Shown: positions 11,262 through 18,172 of the stretch, one piece after another
Position numbering within the stretch: the first letter of the stretch is position 1
Layout: the number at the start of each line of letters is the position of its first letter
Origin: Ignavibacteriales bacterium
GTDB taxonomy: Bacteria; Bacteroidota; Ignavibacteria; Ignavibacteriales; Melioribacteraceae
Reading direction: 5' to 3'
Assembly (NCBI GenBank): GCA_026390775.1
Contig: JAPLFF010000007.1
Span: forward strand, 248,001-312,000
Length of the DNA: 64,000 bases
The notes under the pieces: generated by a model
Seen by the model: the letters and a program-made list of their open reading frames with translations, nothing else
The model's database searches: none
Told to the model about the DNA's origin: nothing
Position numbers and translations under genes: made by a program

Positions 11262-12653
11262 TTATTTTTTTGTACCAATCATCTTTTCAGGACGAACAAC
11301 TTCATCAAATTTTTCTGCAGTTAATAGACCGAGTTCAAGTACAGCTTCTTTCAAAGTTTTATTTTCTTTGTGAGCTTTCTTGGCAACTTTCGCAGCATTA
11401 TCGTAACCAATAACCGGATTCAAAGAAGTAACCAGCATCAATGAATTTTCGAGGTGTCTCTTGATATTGATTTCATTGGCTGTAATGCCTTCCACACAAT
11501 GTTCGCTGAAACTTTCGCAAGCATCTGCAATTAATTTTATTGATTGAAGAACGTTGAATGCTATAACCGGCATAAAAACATTCAGTTCAAAATTTCCACT
11601 TGAACCGGCAATGTTTATAGTTACATCATTCCCGAAAACTTGAGTACAAACCATCGTCATAGCTTCGCATTGCGTTGGATTAACTTTTCCGGGCATGATT
11701 GAACTGCCAGGTTCGTTTTCCGGTAAAGAGATTTCACCTATTCCGCATCTCGGTCCGGAACCAAGCCAACGGATATCATTTGATATTTTTAATAATGAAG
11801 CACCAAGTGTTTTTAGTACACCGCTTATTTCTACTAAAGCATCTTTTGCCGCCATCGCTTCATATTTATTCGGTGCGGTTTTGAATGGCTTTCCGGTTAG
11901 TTTAGAAATTGTCTCAGCAACTTTAACTGCATAATCGGGATGAGCATTTAATCCTGTACCTACAGCAGTTCCGCCAAGAGGAATTTCGTATAATCTTTTT
12001 AGTGAATCACTAATACGTGCTAATCCGTTTGTTAATTGTTGAACGTAGCCCGAAAATTCATGACCAAGTGTAAGTGGAGTTGCATCCATTAAATGTGTTC
12101 TGCCGATTTTGATTATGTCTTTAAATTCTTTTGCTTTTGCATCTAATGAATCGCGCAACTTTGTTACCATAGGAATTAATCGGCGATGAATTTCTTCTAC
12201 CGCTGCAACATGAATTGATGTTGGGAAAGCATCATTAGTTGATTGAGCTTTGTTCACATCATCATTCGGATGGATCGGCTTTTTGCTACCCATAACTCCG
12301 CCTGCCATTTCGATCGCACGATTGGAGATAACTTCGTTTGCATTCATGTTTGTTTGAGTACCACTTCCGGTTTGCCAAACAACTAAAGGAAAATGATCAT
12401 TCAATTTTCCTTCAATAACTTCATCAGCTGCTTTTACAATCAAATCAAGTTTGTCCTTAGGTAAAATTCCTAATTCATTGTTAGTGATTGCTGCAGCTTT
12501 TTTTACAATACCCAGCGCTCTAATCATCTCAGCAGGAAATCTTTCTCCGCCAATTTTAAAATTCATTAACGATCTTGCTGTCTGCGCGCCATAATACTTA
12601 TCAACGGGGACTTTCATTTCACCCATAGTATCGGTTTCAATTCTGTATTCCAT
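11262..12653 (-). CDS. fumC: Class II fumarate hydratase
   Basis: 463 residues, the usual length for the iron-independent homotetrameric fumarase that interconverts fumarate and L-malate in the TCA cycle. The superfamily signature [10 protein letters not shown] sits at residues 316-325, with the catalytic flexible SS loop serine. [14 protein letters not shown] (about 96-109) and the active-site [14 protein letters not shown] (about 184-197) match the FumC subgroup rather than aspartase or argininosuccinate lyase. ATG with GGAGCT ribosome-binding site; a promoter candidate lies in the 104-bp gap before it. Appears monocistronic. Confidence 0.95.
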
Positions 12654-12685
12654 TTTAGCTCCAATAGGTTTTTGTTTGCTTTGTC

Positions 12686-12714
12686 AAATTAATAGAATAT
12701 GGTTTTATTATCAA
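12686..12714 (-). promoter_or_regulatory. Candidate fumC promoter
   Basis: Minus strand TTGATA (12714-12709), 17-bp spacer, TAATTT (12691-12686), about 32 bp ahead of the fumC ATG in a gene-free gap. Motif match only. Confidence 0.4.
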
Positions 12715-12757
12715 CGAGGTTTTAGGTAAGATTTGAGCGGTTAAGAATGAATCTAAA

Positions 12758-13471
12758 TTATTGTTCTCCAATTGTCTCTACACGTCTTGCACCGACAAAA
12801 CGTTTTTTGTAGTATGCATCTTCAAGAGAAGAGACAGTAACACCAATTGAACGGCTTGCGTGTACAAATTGATTTTCACCGAGATAAATTCCTACATGAC
12901 CCGGAAAAGATCTTTTTGTAGTATTGAAGAAAACCAGGTCGCCGAATTTCAATTCATCCATAGAAATTTTTTCTCCGGCAGAATATTGCTCACTTGCTGA
13001 TCGTGGAATTTCGATAGCAAGAGAATTTTGATAAACTTGCAAAGTAAAGGCAGAACAATCCATTCCTTTTTGCGTATTGCCGCCATATTTGTAAGGCGTT
13101 TCTAAATATTTAATCACTTCGAACAAAACTTTTTCGCGTGGTGTAAGAGCAACATTGAATGTTTTTAGTTTTTCAAAGTGAGATACAAAATTTGTTTTAT
13201 CAACGGGATTTTCTTCAACCGGTATTTCATCAAATTCAGCCGAAGTATCTGCAGGTAGATCATTAAAAATAATTCGCTCGTTTTTAGGTGTTGTGCGTGA
13301 ATATCTTTTTGTTGTATCTGAGGATTCAAATCTCGGATTTGAATTACCGTTTCTATCACTTTTACTTTGCTTAAATCTTTGTGTACTTGAAGAAGAAGAA
13401 CAACCGCTGAAGATCATGAATACAAAAACTGAACAAATAATTTTTTTGAAAATTCTGTTGAGTATAATCAT
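12758..13471 (-). CDS. NlpC/P60-family cell-wall peptidase lipoprotein
   Basis: About 237 residues. A lipoprotein signal ends in FSGC (lipidated Cys at residue 24), followed by a Ser/Arg/Asn-rich linker of roughly 80 residues and a C-terminal NlpC/P60 cysteine-peptidase domain. Catalytic residues visible: C139 in GMDCSAF, H192 in GHVGIYLG, and H204 in FVHAS. Such enzymes cut stem-peptide bonds in peptidoglycan during growth and remodelling. I chose the ATG at 13471; a TTG two codons upstream also exists. It follows the primary sigma gene by 8 bp or less and is likely in the same transcript. Confidence 0.9.
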   Translation of the reverse strand: MIILNRIFKKIICSVFVFMIFSGCSSSSSTQRFKQSKSDRNGNSNPRFESSDTTKRYSRTTPKNERIIFNDLPADTSAEFDEIPVEENPVDKTNFVSHFEKLKTFNVALTPREKVLFEVIKYLETPYKYGGNTQKGMDCSAFTLQVYQNSLAIEIPRSASEQYSAGEKISMDELKFGDLVFFNTTKRSFPGHVGIYLGENQFVHASRSIGVTVSSLEDAYYKKRFVGARRVETIGEQ

Positions 13472-13479
13472 AAGCAAAC

Positions 13480-14334
13480 TTAACCTAAGTAAGATCTTAA
13501 ATTTTTACTGCGAGATGCATGTCGTAATCTTCTAATTGCTTTTTCTTTTATTTGACGAACGCGCTCGCGGGTTAGATTAAATTTCTCGCCGATTTCTTCA
13601 AGTGTAAGAGAATGTTCCTTATTCAGTCCGAAATAAAGTTTTATTACTTCACCTTCCCTTTCAGAAAGAGTAGAAAGCGCCCGCTCAATTTCACTTCGTA
13701 GAGATTCCGACATTAGTGTGAAATCCGGTGATGGCTCCTCATCATTTTCAAGAATATCAAGCAACCGATTTTCCTCACCTTGATTAAACGGTGCATCCAT
13801 TGAAACAGCACGTCCCGCAATTTTTAGAGTATCTGAAACTTCACTTATATCCATATCAAGTTCTTGTGCAAGTTCATGTGCATTCGGCTCACGTTCATAT
13901 TCCTGCTCAAGATTGCTGTAAGCTTTCCCGATCTTGTTCAATGCACCAACTCTATTTAATGGTAATCTTACAATCCTTGATTGTTCCGCCAATGCTTGAA
14001 GAATAGATTGACGAATCCACCAAACAGCATACGAAATAAATTTGAATCCGCGCGTTTCATCAAATCTTTTTGCCGCTTTAATCAAACCCAAATTACCTTC
14101 ATTAATCAAATCGCCAAGCGAGAGCCCTTGATTTTGATATTGTTTAGCAACCGAAACAACAAACCGTAAATTTGCTTTAACTAATTTTTCTAATGCCAAC
14201 GAATCATTTTTTCTTATTCTTATTGCCAGTTCAATTTCGTCGTCTGGTGTTAATAGATCTACTTTACCAATTTCTTGAAGATATTTATCTAAAGATTGAC
14301 TTTCTCTATTAGTGTATTGTTTTGTGATTTTCAA
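13480..14334 (-). CDS. rpoD: Primary sigma factor (RpoD/SigA), short FCB type
   Basis: 284 residues holding regions 1.2 to 4.2 but no region 1.1, as in Bacteroidota and Chlorobi housekeeping sigma factors. It opens with the lineage-typical [19 protein letters not shown] (first residue from TTG). Region 2.3-2.4 includes [29 protein letters not shown] and region 4.2 ends [22 protein letters not shown]. No in-frame ATG is available near the start: the initiator is TTG at 14334 with GGAG properly spaced, and an in-frame stop lies upstream. It begins 13 bp after the second BMC-P gene, so the three are probably one operon, with the NlpC/P60 gene behind. Confidence 0.93.
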
Positions 14335-14347
14335 AATTACATCTCCG

Positions 14348-14617
14348 CTAGGATTCTATATTAATTGAATCAACAATTCCAACGATTGAAGCATCAACCG
14401 GAGCCATATCAACATCAAGAGGTATAACAGCTTCGCTTGCTGTTACGTAATAAATTATTTCTCCTGAACCGGCTCCAACCGTATCTAAAGCAATAATCGG
14501 TTCTCCAATATTTTTCCCCTCGGAATTAATTGGCTGGACAAACAGCATTTTATAGCCTGTAACAGCATCATCTTTTCTTGTTGCCCAAATAGTCCCTATG
14601 ATTTTGCCAAGCTGCAT
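14348..14617 (-). CDS. Bacterial microcompartment vertex protein (BMC-P, EutN/CcmL family)
   Basis: 89 residues, the full length of an EutN/CcmL protein. Diagnostic pieces: [16 protein letters not shown] at the N-terminus, the turn VGAGSGE and the C-terminal [12 protein letters not shown]. Family members form pentamers that cap the vertices of protein-shelled organelles. ATG start, overlapping the stop of the preceding paralogue by 1 bp (TGATG), so the two are translationally coupled. No hexameric shell protein (BMC-H/T), aldolase or aldehyde dehydrogenase of a compartment is present in the window; the next gene is the primary sigma factor. Confidence 0.92.
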
Positions 14618-14916
14618 CAGAACACAACGGTTTCTTTTTGTTTATCTTTTACTGAGATATCAAGTTTATCAACAATAGCCATAATTACTGCATCCACAGG
14701 TTTATTTTTTGTAAATGCTGTTTGGCGTGCGGAACTGCCTTGTGCAACAATTACTATTTCACCAACCCCAGCACCAACAGAATCAACTGCGATCACTGTT
14801 GATTCTTTCGGTTTATATTCCAGATCAATGTGACGAACTATTAAAAATTTGGCTCCGACCAGATTTTCATCTTTACGCGTCGACCATACAGTTCCAATAA
14901 CTTTACCGAGTATCAA
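14617..14916 (-). CDS. Bacterial microcompartment vertex protein (BMC-P), second copy
   Basis: 99 residues, clearly a paralogue of the gene that follows: ILGKVIGTVWSTRKDENLVG at the start, VGAGVGE in the middle and VDAVIMAIVDKL near the end, then a 13-residue polar tail the other copy lacks. Start is TTG with GAGGAT spaced about 8 bp before it; the apparent ATG just upstream runs into a stop. Two divergent BMC-P proteins usually mean a shell with different vertex types, or mixed pentamers. A remnant of a PIN-domain gene precedes it by 10 bp. Confidence 0.9.
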   Translation of the reverse strand: MILGKVIGTVWSTRKDENLVGAKFLIVRHIDLEYKPKESTVIAVDSVGAGVGEIVIVAQGSSARQTAFTKNKPVDAVIMAIVDKLDISVKDKQKETVVF

Positions 14917-14926
14917 ATCATCCTCT

Positions 14927-15103
14927 CTATTCTAATGATGTAATAATTTTAATTCCGCTCTCTTTATATCTGTAACTATCGTTTGTAAAAATAGGAAGTT
15001 TATTGTTTTTTGCAACTGAACAAACAATTGCGTCACGTGTGGTCGCAACTTTATTAAAAAAATCTGTAATGTTCAAACCGAAACAAGATAATTGACGGTT
15101 GTT
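14927..15103 (-). pseudogene. PIN-domain (VapC-like) C-terminal remnant
   Basis: An open stretch of 58 codons plus stop with no ATG. The translation TTRDAIVCSVAKNNKLPIFTND, read in two pieces TTRDAIVCSVA and KNNKLPIFTND, followed by GIKIITSLE, matches the C-terminal third of PIN-domain ribonucleases, including the conserved Asp of the RDA segment and the TND turn. The N-terminal part with the first acidic residues is missing: upstream comes a stop codon and then the end of deoB. Best read as a leftover of a toxin-type gene. A TTG-started small protein cannot be fully excluded. Confidence 0.5.
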
Positions 15104-15113
15104 TTAGTTTGCT

Positions 15114-16277
15114 TTATTCATTCAAAAAACTTGTCCCTTTCAAATCATTATTGATCTTAAAATAATGTGCAACTGTTTGAGCAACATCAGAAAAGGTTTT
15201 ACGTGTGCCTAAATTTTTACCTTGAATATTTTTTCTATAATAGAGAAGAGGTACATATTCCCGGGTATGATCTGTGCTTATATCGGTCGGGTCATTACCA
15301 TGATCGGCTGTTAGGATTAAACGGTCTGTTTCATCAAGACAGTTTACGATCTCGGGTAATCGTGTATCAAATTCTTTAAGAGCGTTGTGAAGTCCTTCGG
15401 GATCGTTTCGATGTCCGTAGTAAACATCAAAATCTACAAGATTTGTGAAAATGAAAGATCCTTTAACATTTTTTGCTGTCTCGATTATTTTTTCAATTCC
15501 CTCTTGATTTGATTTTGTTTTCAGTTTGTGTTTTATCCCCTGGTAATTGAATAGATCATTTACTTTCCCGATTGCATAGGTTTCAATTCCATCATTCAAA
15601 CAATAATCCAATATTGTTGGTGATGGCGGATCAAGAGAAAAGTCTTTTCGATTTGTTGTACGGGTATAATTTCCTTCCGTCCCGATAAATGGTCTCGCTA
15701 TAATTCTTCCAACAGCATCTTTACCAACAAAAACTTTTTCACGTGAGATTGAACAGATTTCATAAAGTTTATTTAATGGAATTATTTCTTCATGTGCTGC
15801 AATCTGAAAAACAGAATCAGCAGAAGTGTAGACAATCGGGTATCCGGTTCTTACATGTTCCGCACCGAGGTCCTTAATAATTTCTGTTCCCGATGCGGCA
15901 TAATTCCCTAGAATATCTTTTAAGCCTGTAGCATTTAAAAATCTATTGATAAGTTCTTGTGGAAAACCATTAGGATAAAACGGAAATTCAATCTCTACTT
16001 TTAATCCGCCTAATTCCCAATGCCCGGTGGTAGAATCTTTTCCATGAGAGATCTCTGATAACTTTCCATAAGAAGCTAATGGTTGGTTTTGTGCTTTAAT
16101 ACCAAGTATAGGATTAATATTGCCTAATCCAAATTGTTCTAGATTAGGTAGATTCAAACCGCCAAGACGATTTGCCATATTGCCAAGTGTATTGCTTCCT
16201 TGATCTGAATAATTTTTAGCATCGGGCAGTTCACCAATCCCGATACCATCGAGAACTATAACAAAGAAATTGTTCAC
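15114..16277 (-). CDS. deoB: Phosphopentomutase
   Basis: 387 residues, alkaline-phosphatase-superfamily metalloenzyme that interconverts (deoxy)ribose 1- and 5-phosphate in nucleoside salvage. The N-terminus IVLDGIGIGELPDA supplies the first metal Asp; the acceptor Thr lies in GSNTLGNMA; further metal ligands are in LTADHGNDPT and STDHTREYVPLL. The SKDSTTGHWE segment, here HGKDSTTGHWELGG, is typical for DeoB. Start is GTG at 16277, 17 bp after the stop of the GAF/GGDEF gene, so the two may share a transcript. The usual deo partners (deoA/C/D) are not next to it. Confidence 0.95.
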   Translation of the reverse strand: MNNFFVIVLDGIGIGELPDAKNYSDQGSNTLGNMANRLGGLNLPNLEQFGLGNINPILGIKAQNQPLASYGKLSEISHGKDSTTGHWELGGLKVEIEFPFYPNGFPQELINRFLNATGLKDILGNYAASGTEIIKDLGAEHVRTGYPIVYTSADSVFQIAAHEEIIPLNKLYEICSISREKVFVGKDAVGRIIARPFIGTEGNYTRTTNRKDFSLDPPSPTILDYCLNDGIETYAIGKVNDLFNYQGIKHKLKTKSNQEGIEKIIETAKNVKGSFIFTNLVDFDVYYGHRNDPEGLHNALKEFDTRLPEIVNCLDETDRLILTADHGNDPTDISTDHTREYVPLLYYRKNIQGKNLGTRKTFSDVAQTVAHYFKINNDLKGTSFLNE

Positions 16278-16294
16278 CAGGGTACTTTCGAATG

Positions 16295-18172
16295 TTAGTT
16301 GATACTTTTTACCGTGTTGCCGCCTTTTTCTAATGCTTTATTAAGTGCAAGTTCGGCATTAGTTAAGATCTCTTGAACATCGGTTTTGTTTGTTGTTGAA
16401 GCAACTCCGATCGAAACAGTAAATGTTGTTTGCTTAGAAACTATAGCAATCGGTTTGCGGGCAATTTTAATTCGTAATTTTTCTGCCCATAGAAAAACAT
16501 CTTTCGGTGACATATTGAAAAAATATACTGCAAAAACTTTTTGACTTAATCGCCCGATTAAATTTAACGGTGTCATTTCATCTTTAATAATCTGAGAAAT
16601 CACACGTACAATTTTAGGGAAAGGGTCGCTTTCAAATAATGAATCTTGTTCTAAAAAATCATCAATTTTGATCATCGCAATTGCACCTTGAATTCCTAAT
16701 TCTTTACTGCGAACAAGATCAACGGTAAACCGCTCGAGGAACGAATCATAATTCAAAGTTTTTGTTTCTGCATCAACAGAAAGCAAACTTTTTAGAACAG
16801 TTATGGTTGAATACGAATGAAGTATAAAAGCAAATATCTTAGTCGCATTCTTGATAAAAGTGACTTCATTATTTGAATAAACATTTTTTTTCAAACTTTC
16901 GAAACACAGAACTCCAAAGTTTTGCTCATCATAAACTAAAGGAATTGCTAAGAAAGAACCATCGAAACTAACATCTTCACTTTTTGCAAAGCGAGGAATT
17001 TCTGAAATTGAAGTATCATCAATCTTAACAGGAGTTGCACTTAATATAGCTCTTCCAACCAAAGTTCCCGCAAGATCAATTTCTAAATTTTCACCGACAT
17101 ACTTTAACGAAGTTTTATTAATGATCTTCGAAGTTTTAAATTTTTGTTCCGACGTATAATAAGAAACAAAAGTAAAAGAATCCCAATCCATTAAACCTTG
17201 AACTGCATTTTCAATAGTTTTATGAAGATCGGATTCCGATTCAATTTTTTTATCGTGACTCAACATATTGAGCAGAGTATTTAATCTCAGCTCTGCTTGT
17301 GATTCGGAAAATTTTTCTTCGAATAATGTTATTATAATCGAAATAACACGGACAATTCTACCAAGTGCATAAACTTGTTCAATACCAAATGCATCATTTA
17401 CTTTAGAATCGAGAACAAGAATACCGGTTAATGATTTACCATAAAACAATGGCACACCGACAAAACTCTTAATTCCTTGTGGGGCGCTGTAATATCTTAT
17501 CACATCAATTTCGGCATTTGAAGAAATGTCGGTCAATAATTCCGGTTCTTCTTTTTGTACAATCTTTCCGAGTATATCATCTTCAAGATCAAATTTTTGT
17601 TGTGTGATTTGAGATGAGCTGGTTACATAACGTTCAAGCGTTAATCGTTTTCTGTTTTTATTGTACCAGAAAAAAGCCGCGGTGTGAGCCATGAAAGAAT
17701 CTTTAACTACACTTAAGATTTTTTCAAGAACAAAACCGAATTGTTCGTCATGATTAACATCTTCCGGAAGTTGTTCGTGAACAATCCTTTCAAAATTTTG
17801 TTTGAAGTCAGGCGGTTTAAAAAGATCTTTATTGCCGCGGTTAATCCCCGAAGCAAAATTATCAGCTGTAATTACTTCAATATTTTTTGTAGGAGAAATT
17901 ATTTTGAAATCTTCACCGGCATCTGTCTCATATCGGTCATTCTCATTTGTATTATCTTCTTCAAAAAGATCTGATTGCAAATCAATATCATTATCAATTG
18001 CATTACTTTTCATGGAATCGCGCAAGAAAATAATGAAGCCGGCATAAACAATAAGAATAACACCGGAAATCATTTTGAGGGTTAAATCATCTGTAAAAAA
18101 TGGAATGACTACAAGGATTGGAATAAATATGAAAATGAAAATTCTCTTTCTGATTTTTTCTGTAATTCCCAT
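16295..18172 (-). CDS. Membrane protein with two GAF domains and a degenerate GGDEF domain
   Basis: 625 residues. Two membrane helices occupy about residues 10-50, followed by a charged linker, a first GAF-like domain (roughly 145-285), a second GAF-like domain (roughly 300-460) and a C-terminal GGDEF-fold domain (roughly 470-620). In the latter the signature loop, expected as GR-x-GGDEF-A, reads GRLSQKVFAV, so the catalytic acidic residues are lost and diguanylate cyclase activity is unlikely; the fold is still clear from TFTVSIGVAS and NAELALNKALEKGGN. It may act as a membrane-linked sensor or scaffold. ATG with AAGAAGGG before it. Confidence 0.85.
   Translation of the reverse strand: MGITEKIRKRIFIFIFIPILVVIPFFTDDLTLKMISGVILIVYAGFIIFLRDSMKSNAIDNDIDLQSDLFEEDNTNENDRYETDAGEDFKIISPTKNIEVITADNFASGINRGNKDLFKPPDFKQNFERIVHEQLPEDVNHDEQFGFVLEKILSVVKDSFMAHTAAFFWYNKNRKRLTLERYVTSSSQITQQKFDLEDDILGKIVQKEEPELLTDISSNAEIDVIRYYSAPQGIKSFVGVPLFYGKSLTGILVLDSKVNDAFGIEQVYALGRIVRVISIIITLFEEKFSESQAELRLNTLLNMLSHDKKIESESDLHKTIENAVQGLMDWDSFTFVSYYTSEQKFKTSKIINKTSLKYVGENLEIDLAGTLVGRAILSATPVKIDDTSISEIPRFAKSEDVSFDGSFLAIPLVYDEQNFGVLCFESLKKNVYSNNEVTFIKNATKIFAFILHSYSTITVLKSLLSVDAETKTLNYDSFLERFTVDLVRSKELGIQGAIAMIKIDDFLEQDSLFESDPFPKIVRVISQIIKDEMTPLNLIGRLSQKVFAVYFFNMSPKDVFLWAEKLRIKIARKPIAIVSKQTTFTVSIGVASTTNKTDVQEILTNAELALNKALEKGGNTVKSIN

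Follow-up and report, generated by a model that had tools for sequence, protein, structure and literature searches.

The locus raises the question of why two genes for vertex proteins of a bacterial microcompartment (BMC) stand directly before the gene of a primary-type sigma factor, and whether they serve a compartment encoded elsewhere in the genome or have another role. In the window, which is the whole stretch of 64,000 nucleotides that was analysed, the minus strand carries BMC-P1 (14617..14916; TTG start, 99 aa) and BMC-P2 (14348..14617; ATG start, 89 aa), both encoding vertex proteins of the EutN/CcmL family. The Pfam domain PF03319 spans nearly the whole of each protein and was matched with 113.7 bits (E 5.8e-33) in P1 and 95.3 bits (E 3.3e-27) in P2 against a cut-off of 25 bits. 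The best solved relative of both was 5v74 (E 2.9e-24 for P1 and 2.9e-14 for P2), which we take to be a Haliangium shell. One base, within TGATG, is common to the two genes, and the ORF of the primary-type (RpoD/SigA) sigma factor (13480..14334, minus strand; TTG start, 284 aa) starts 13 bp past the P2 stop codon. The sigma protein showed Pfam regions 1.2, 2, 3 and 4 and its best solved relatives were SigA/RpoD chains, and it scored below the NCBIfam RpoD cut-offs. A second sigma gene with 79% identity to that of the window was found on contig C3. Overall, coordinates, Pfam and solved relatives confirmed what the first-pass annotation had described, namely two BMC-P genes with a 1-bp overlap placed 13 bp before rpoD. 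Its statement that there is no BMC-H gene within 50 kb of the pair also held, the nearest being approximately 94 kb away on the same contig.

The surrounding genes lie on the same strand. An NlpC/P60-family gene (12758..13477, minus; Pfam NLPC_P60 E 3e-33) lies 2 bp past the sigma gene, while the next intact gene upstream of P1, which had not been remarked on before, is deoB for phosphopentomutase (15114..16277, minus; NCBIfam NF003766 with 532 bits and TIGR01696 with 482 bits, both above cut-off), itself preceded by a GAF/GGDEF-domain gene assigned with Pfam (16295..18172, minus). The decayed 3' end of a PIN-domain gene (approximate limits 14927..15070, minus) was recognised between deoB and P1 by alignment with relatives having an intact ORF there that matches Pfam PIN. 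In loci L022 (7429-7999), L045 and L064, the PIN-domain gene and a small ORF before it form a toxin-antitoxin-like arrangement between deoB and P1, and it is the end of that gene which the window keeps.

The tight spacing of P1, P2 and rpoD makes it likely that they are read on one transcript. A scan of positions 12600-16400 with a sigma-70-type consensus produced 7 matches compared to 13.3 in shuffles, and one promoter-like match (14382-14353, minus; 9 of 12) falls at the very end of P2, a short way ahead of the sigma gene. Terminator-like sites numbered 2 in the same region compared to 2.0 in shuffles, one of them (15049-15032, minus) between deoB and P1. Of the promoter or terminator dividing the pair from rpoD that the first-pass annotation had named as evidence against a joint transcript, a terminator cannot fit wholly in the 13-bp gap, and the match at the end of P2 could be such a promoter. 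The promoter motif of Bacteroidota type is TAnnTTTG. In the best 80 of 160 contigs found with P1, chosen for P1 similarity, this motif was not consistently present: raw counts were 15 of 80 loci within 250 nt upstream of P1 and 14 of 79 (window included) upstream of the sigma gene, several of the latter overlapping the start codon.

The class sample consisted of 119 genomes, 45 with BMC-P (shell-positive) and 74 without (shell-negative). BMC-domain genes were present in all 45 shell-positive genomes compared to 2 of the 74 others, both of these below the family cut-off. A sigma match at E 1e-70 was obtained in 42 of the 45, and coordinate comparison showed that 38 of these 42 have two BMC-P genes directly upstream of a sigma gene on the same strand, with no more than about 140 bp between the end of the BMC-P profile match and that gene. 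The comparison of gene order in related genomes that had been proposed earlier therefore showed the rpoD-BMC-P linkage to be real and conserved, and the order is not a product of chance because dozens of genomes share it. In the four exceptions (G013, G065, G085 and G096), another contig holds three or four BMC-P; the three genomes with no sigma match (G035, G045 and G054) are 68-85% complete and gave a single BMC-P match apiece. Of the 14 genomes of family f1, 13 have one or more additional sigma genes elsewhere, with no BMC-P beside those.

Among the best 80 of 160 contigs, the order P1, P2, sigma was kept as far as the contigs reach, the exceptions being L031, which ends after P2, and L068. 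In L068 (8001-9304), P2 was not found and P1 stands directly before the sigma gene, a natural loss of one vertex gene, and L097 (8593-10326) has two sigma genes in tandem after the BMC-P pair. In this set of best 80 of 160, the gap between P2 and sigma did not exceed 30 bp in 72 of 78 loci or 100 bp in 77 of them, while that between P1 and P2 had a median of 0 with overlap in 38 of 79, one of which (L029) came from a run-on reading. P1 identity was 72-98%, nlpC followed sigma in nearly all loci reaching that far, and 76 of 80 loci carried deoB upstream on the strand of P1, at a gap of 15 bp to 3.9 kb (median 383 bp). Distances were correlated between P1 and sigma (Spearman 0.397) and between P2 and sigma (0.585), with 0 of 500 permutations as high, for 81 of 100 loci (L021-L100 and L141-L160) plus the window, 19 being dropped for broken or cut frames or for having no adjacent sigma; these values weakly suggest joint descent of the pair and the sigma gene. 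In addition, P1 and P2 had dN lower than dS when compared with the eight closest loci for which the two values were computable.

A phylum sample of 395 genomes produced a P1 match in 74, of which 26 were outside the class and 19 of these were examined. The sigma gene directly followed P1-P2 in 11 of the 19 loci (L141-L147, L149, L151, L153 and L154), and no deoB was found between or upstream in those 11. The other 8 loci had no sigma gene after the pair; deoB was upstream of P1 in six without sigma there, L148 (0.8 kb), L155 (2.8 kb) and L156-L159 (at most 63 bp). Thus some lineages link the pair to deoB and others to rpoD, and in the window's own class it is mostly linked to the two together. 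For sites without the compartment, a sigma gene was found in all 30 shell-negative genomes searched, and no BMC-P was found at 20 sigma loci of 19 shell-negative genomes. At those 20 loci, deoB was present as a broken fragment in L106 and intact in L118, and a GGDEF-type gene lay within about 0.8 kb upstream of sigma in six others, with no BMC-P or deoB found between. The order GGDEF, deoB, sigma was seen in the shell-negative genome L180. In the shell-positive G013, deoB adjoins sigma without the pair, and elsewhere a cluster (L139 and L140) combines a BMC-P triplet with BMC-H, a class II aldolase and a distant dehydrogenase (29%).

The remainder of the shell was sought in the whole assembly of eight contigs (3.0 Mb, rated 99.94% complete). 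The genome search for PF00936 that the first-pass annotation had recommended found four domains, of which two belong to a pair of BMC-H genes (C7:168 kb) and two to a single BMC-T gene (C3:565 kb). There were six BMC-P genes, these being the window pair, a triplet at C8:156 kb and a single gene at C6:80.7 kb, 1.1 kb from the contig end. The shell genes therefore occupy five places, with BMC-P at three, BMC-H at a fourth and BMC-T at a fifth. No BMC-H was found near any BMC-P in the assembly, so that no main locus in the published sense was seen from which the pair, as a satellite locus, would be distal.

Each of the dispersed shell genes has neighbours of its own. The two BMC-H genes are flanked by genes read by eye as ruvX and ybbR, and at four further BMC-H loci a ruvX or ybbR-like match was adjoining or near in L175, L176 and L178 and neither was found in L177. 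BMC-H2 (L011:9254-9952) has a C-terminal extension of about 150 residues, the end of which resembles the second BMC-H of L177. A PduS/RnfC-like gene (RnfC_N and Complex1_51K domains; TIGR01945 score just below cut-off) precedes that of the PduT-like BMC-T, and BMC-T lay within about 0.6 kb of a PduS-like gene in 14 of 14 cases examined. The single BMC-P on C6, which is the third vertex gene, stands directly before dprA (TIGR00732 above cut-off) and adjoins dprA in 17 of 17 genomes examined; in L138, the BMC-P by dprA scored best with the C8 member Tc. No PduL (PF06130) was found in the genome.

The C8 triplet (L013:9932-10790) is separated by about 3.6 kb from a class II aldolase gene (L013:14374-15147) with an amphipathic C-terminal end, for which 0.0034 of shuffles had a hydrophobic moment as high. 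A full BMC locus with its own BMC-P genes, which had been named as counter-evidence to a role of the pair, was not encountered as far as seen; the triplet does supply other BMC-P genes, and no BMC-H was found in 20 kb around it. It resembles the triplet in the G013 cluster (74, 68 and 61% identity), which also has a relative (69%) of the C8 aldolase. Triplet and aldolase may be what is left of a second, PVM-like compartment that shares the shell of the FRAG type of BMC, which is described below. The triplet is present in the same-genus genome G093 and was not found in G049, both of which have the window-type pair. In a BMC-P tree of 52 rows, with few columns and many weak forks, the P1 rows fell on one side of a branch, while P2 and P3 needed two label changes each, with the C8 triplet among them on long branches. 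P1 and P2 grouped with the pairs of other genomes, apart from the C8 triplet with the exception of Tb among the P2 rows. P1, P2 and P3 stood apart, which agrees with the FRAG description of a BMC-P triplet from different clades when clades of this tree are taken.

The predicted cargo was found away from the pair. The DeoC of this genome (L011:1609-2472; DeoC equivalog in NCBIfam) has about 65 extra N-terminal residues; its gene is found about 7 kb away from BMC-H and shares no locus with BMC-P. An N-terminal extension was scored from the query residue at which the best DeoC match starts. This was between 1 and 27 for 40 of the 44 shell-positive genomes with DeoC and 45 or later for 56 of 56 shell-negative ones, i.e. 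40/44 compared to 0/56 with the extension. The exceptions were G031, with the N-terminal part on another contig, and G065, G085 and G096, which have other BMC-P arrangements. The sixteen shell-positive DeoC that were read start with a hydrophobic stretch (such as IIDKVVSEVFIEK), and most of them have a linker that contains cysteine. In residues 20-45, conserved cysteines lie between helix and core, and C28 of this genome's protein was invariant in the 16 rows. Of seven shell-negative DeoC read, five start at most 18 residues before the core, and G043 and G008 are longer but with unlike frames. The structural model placed an N-terminal helix, itself of low confidence (block pLDDT 45-48), beyond a low-confidence linker, and the hydrophobic moment of the N-terminus was no higher than in shuffles (47% of which were as high).

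An acetylating acetaldehyde dehydrogenase was identified at L020:721-2361 (TIGR02518 624.5 bits, cut-off 620.1), and its presence agrees with the pfam00171 aldehyde dehydrogenase of FRAG genomes. Matches at E 1e-30 were obtained in 43 of 45 shell-positive genomes compared to 1 of 74 shell-negative ones; among the 43, those of G065 and G096 are distant (27-28% identity), and those of G085 (51%), G013 and G082 align short of the tail. This tail follows a variable linker, carries a GxG[IM] motif and has a short helix-like end; it was present in all 20 shell-positive dehydrogenases read, i.e. in 19 of 19 aligned rows and in L220, which was left out of the alignment as its frame overran the end of the sequence. 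In the 19 aligned rows, G529, G531 and F544 were invariant, and the tail was missing from L219, the sole shell-negative relative. Only 0.0004 of shuffles had a hydrophobic moment as high as the tail, and the model showed a C-terminal helix (pLDDT about 70) past a low-confidence linker. Five other aldehyde dehydrogenases (L015-L019) were read by eye as other enzymes and rejected as cargo, L018 having a hydrophobic C-terminal stretch.

A deoB match was found in 33 of 45 shell-positive genomes, leaving 12 without, compared to 4 of 74 shell-negative ones; as the genomes are related, Fisher tests on these co-occurrences overstate independence. Among the 14 genomes of family f1, 11 carry the third BMC-P and the dehydrogenase on the same contig, separated by 13-28 kb, and 10 have DeoC at a distance of 7-17 kb from the two BMC-H genes; in the remainder, for both, the partners are on different contigs or one partner was not found. 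In G033, deoC lies 2.6 kb beyond sigma on the same strand. It is new here that deoB, the extended DeoC and the tailed acetylating dehydrogenase travel with the shell.

We consider it probable that the pair encodes two of the three vertices of one dispersed, FRAG-type BMC for deoxyribose phosphate, with a transcript running into rpoD. This reading builds on the observed gene content, gene order, co-occurrence and terminal extensions, from which we infer assembly, encapsulation, substrate and co-transcription. The shell would be assembled from the window pair, the third BMC-P before dprA, the two BMC-H proteins and the PduT-like BMC-T encoded beside the PduS/RnfC-like gene, and would enclose DeoC, targeted by its N-terminal extension, and the acetylating acetaldehyde dehydrogenase, targeted by its C-terminal tail. 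Deoxynucleosides, probably from DNA, would give deoxyribose 1-phosphate, which DeoB would convert to deoxyribose 5-phosphate. Inside the shell, DeoC would cleave this to glyceraldehyde 3-phosphate and acetaldehyde, and the dehydrogenase would turn the acetaldehyde into acetyl-CoA, while the PduS/PduT-like pair could carry electrons across the shell.

Two other origins of the pair were weighed against a dispersed compartment. The first-pass annotation had suggested satellite vertex genes, and it was right that further shell genes exist elsewhere, but the assembly offered no main locus for them to be satellites of. A satellite role of the pair for a conventional BMC with clustered genes elsewhere could be argued from the BMC-H genes 94 kb away and from the C8 triplet with its nearby amphipathic-ended aldolase; the separation of BMC-H from every BMC-P, the independence of triplet and pair in G049 and the grouping of P1 and P2 apart from the triplet, Tb excepted, make it improbable. 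It is more improbable still that the two proteins no longer serve a shell and instead have the sigma factor or transcription as their target. Although the neighbourhood with sigma has long been kept and P1 is well conserved over the best 80 of 160 loci, all BMC-P genomes of the class have BMC-domain genes and nearly all have the cargo, and pairs are also found without sigma beside them. The other role that had been put forward is not needed, because shell genes, DeoC extension and dehydrogenase co-occur.

A regulatory purpose of the rpoD linkage is a possibility within the dispersed-compartment reading. The linkage may have been selected since it sets expression, with the shell made constitutively and in step with growth, unlike inducible BMCs; the tight P2-sigma spacing in the best 80 of 160 loci, the 38 of 42 class genomes and 11 of 19 outside loci with the pair before sigma and the constant company of the third BMC-P and dprA are in its favour. 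However, synteny extends over much of the rpoA-nlpC region, so that shared ancestry alone may explain the link, 8 of the 19 outside-class loci lack sigma there, G013 has sigma and deoB without the pair, and the promoter-like match stands just before sigma. Overall, selection for expression is regarded as a tentative explanation, with the balance against it. A wider and somewhat more speculative proposal is that Ignavibacteria and relatives have built the vertex, facet and electron-transfer genes of an organelle into separate core neighbourhoods (rpoD, dprA, ruvX and PduS), so that the organelle would be constitutive, set in number by the level of the rpoD messenger and feeding on DNA, with dprA sharing the operon of the third vertex gene. 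If so, this would be an organelle integrated in the core genome and not a mobile, inducible metabolic cassette. Generally, the vertex-rpoD arrangement shows that BMC genes can stay anchored by core genes across many genera of a class; cluster-based BMC searches may under-describe such genes, and the arrangement raises the question of whether vertex supply is tied to growth.

Among known systems, Melioribacter roseus is described in the available part of Axen et al. 2014 (PMC4207490) as having seven BMC-P genes distributed over five loci, of which four are satellite or satellite-like, and a PVM-like locus with a class II aldolase; that part links no DeoC to this organism, and the terms 'rpoD' and 'sigma factor' are absent from the main text. 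The main text of Sutter et al. 2021 (PMC8217296) likewise does not contain 'deoxyribose' or 'sigma', and no BMC-P adjoining rpoD and no FRAG function were found in a search of open-licence literature and in the passages of these two papers. The HO type of Haliangium ochraceum (PMC8217296) has a BMC-P triplet and a main locus, and some genomes have a distant pfam01791 enzyme bearing an N-terminal extension like an encapsulation peptide (EP). The present genome is similar in its BMC-P triplet and in 5v74 being the best solved relative of P1, whereas no main locus was seen here. The SPU (sugar phosphate utilization) BMC is proposed, in the sections of PMC4207490 and PMC8217296 available, to use DNA breakdown products with a DeoC-type aldolase making acetaldehyde and an aldehyde dehydrogenase, grouped with shell genes and RpiB. 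By analogy, DeoC and the acetylating dehydrogenase would follow the logic of SPU compartments, the genome likewise having a DeoC-type pfam01791 aldolase and an aldehyde dehydrogenase, but here the genes are dispersed, PduL was not found and no main locus joins BMC-H and BMC-P. Finally, the accessible text of Sutter et al. 2021 (PMC8217296) reports the FRAG type for Ignavibacteriae and related phyla, with shell genes at several places, a BMC-P triplet and a pfam00171 dehydrogenase, and this text gives no function and no obvious aldehyde-making enzyme. The genome resembles FRAG, as far as that published description goes, in a shell dispersed without a defined locus, a BMC-P triplet and a pfam00171 dehydrogenase, and the extended DeoC, deoB and the operon neighbours are added here. 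The co-occurring DeoC, dehydrogenase and deoB give the FRAG BMCs, catalogued in 2021, a testable function in deoxyribose catabolism.
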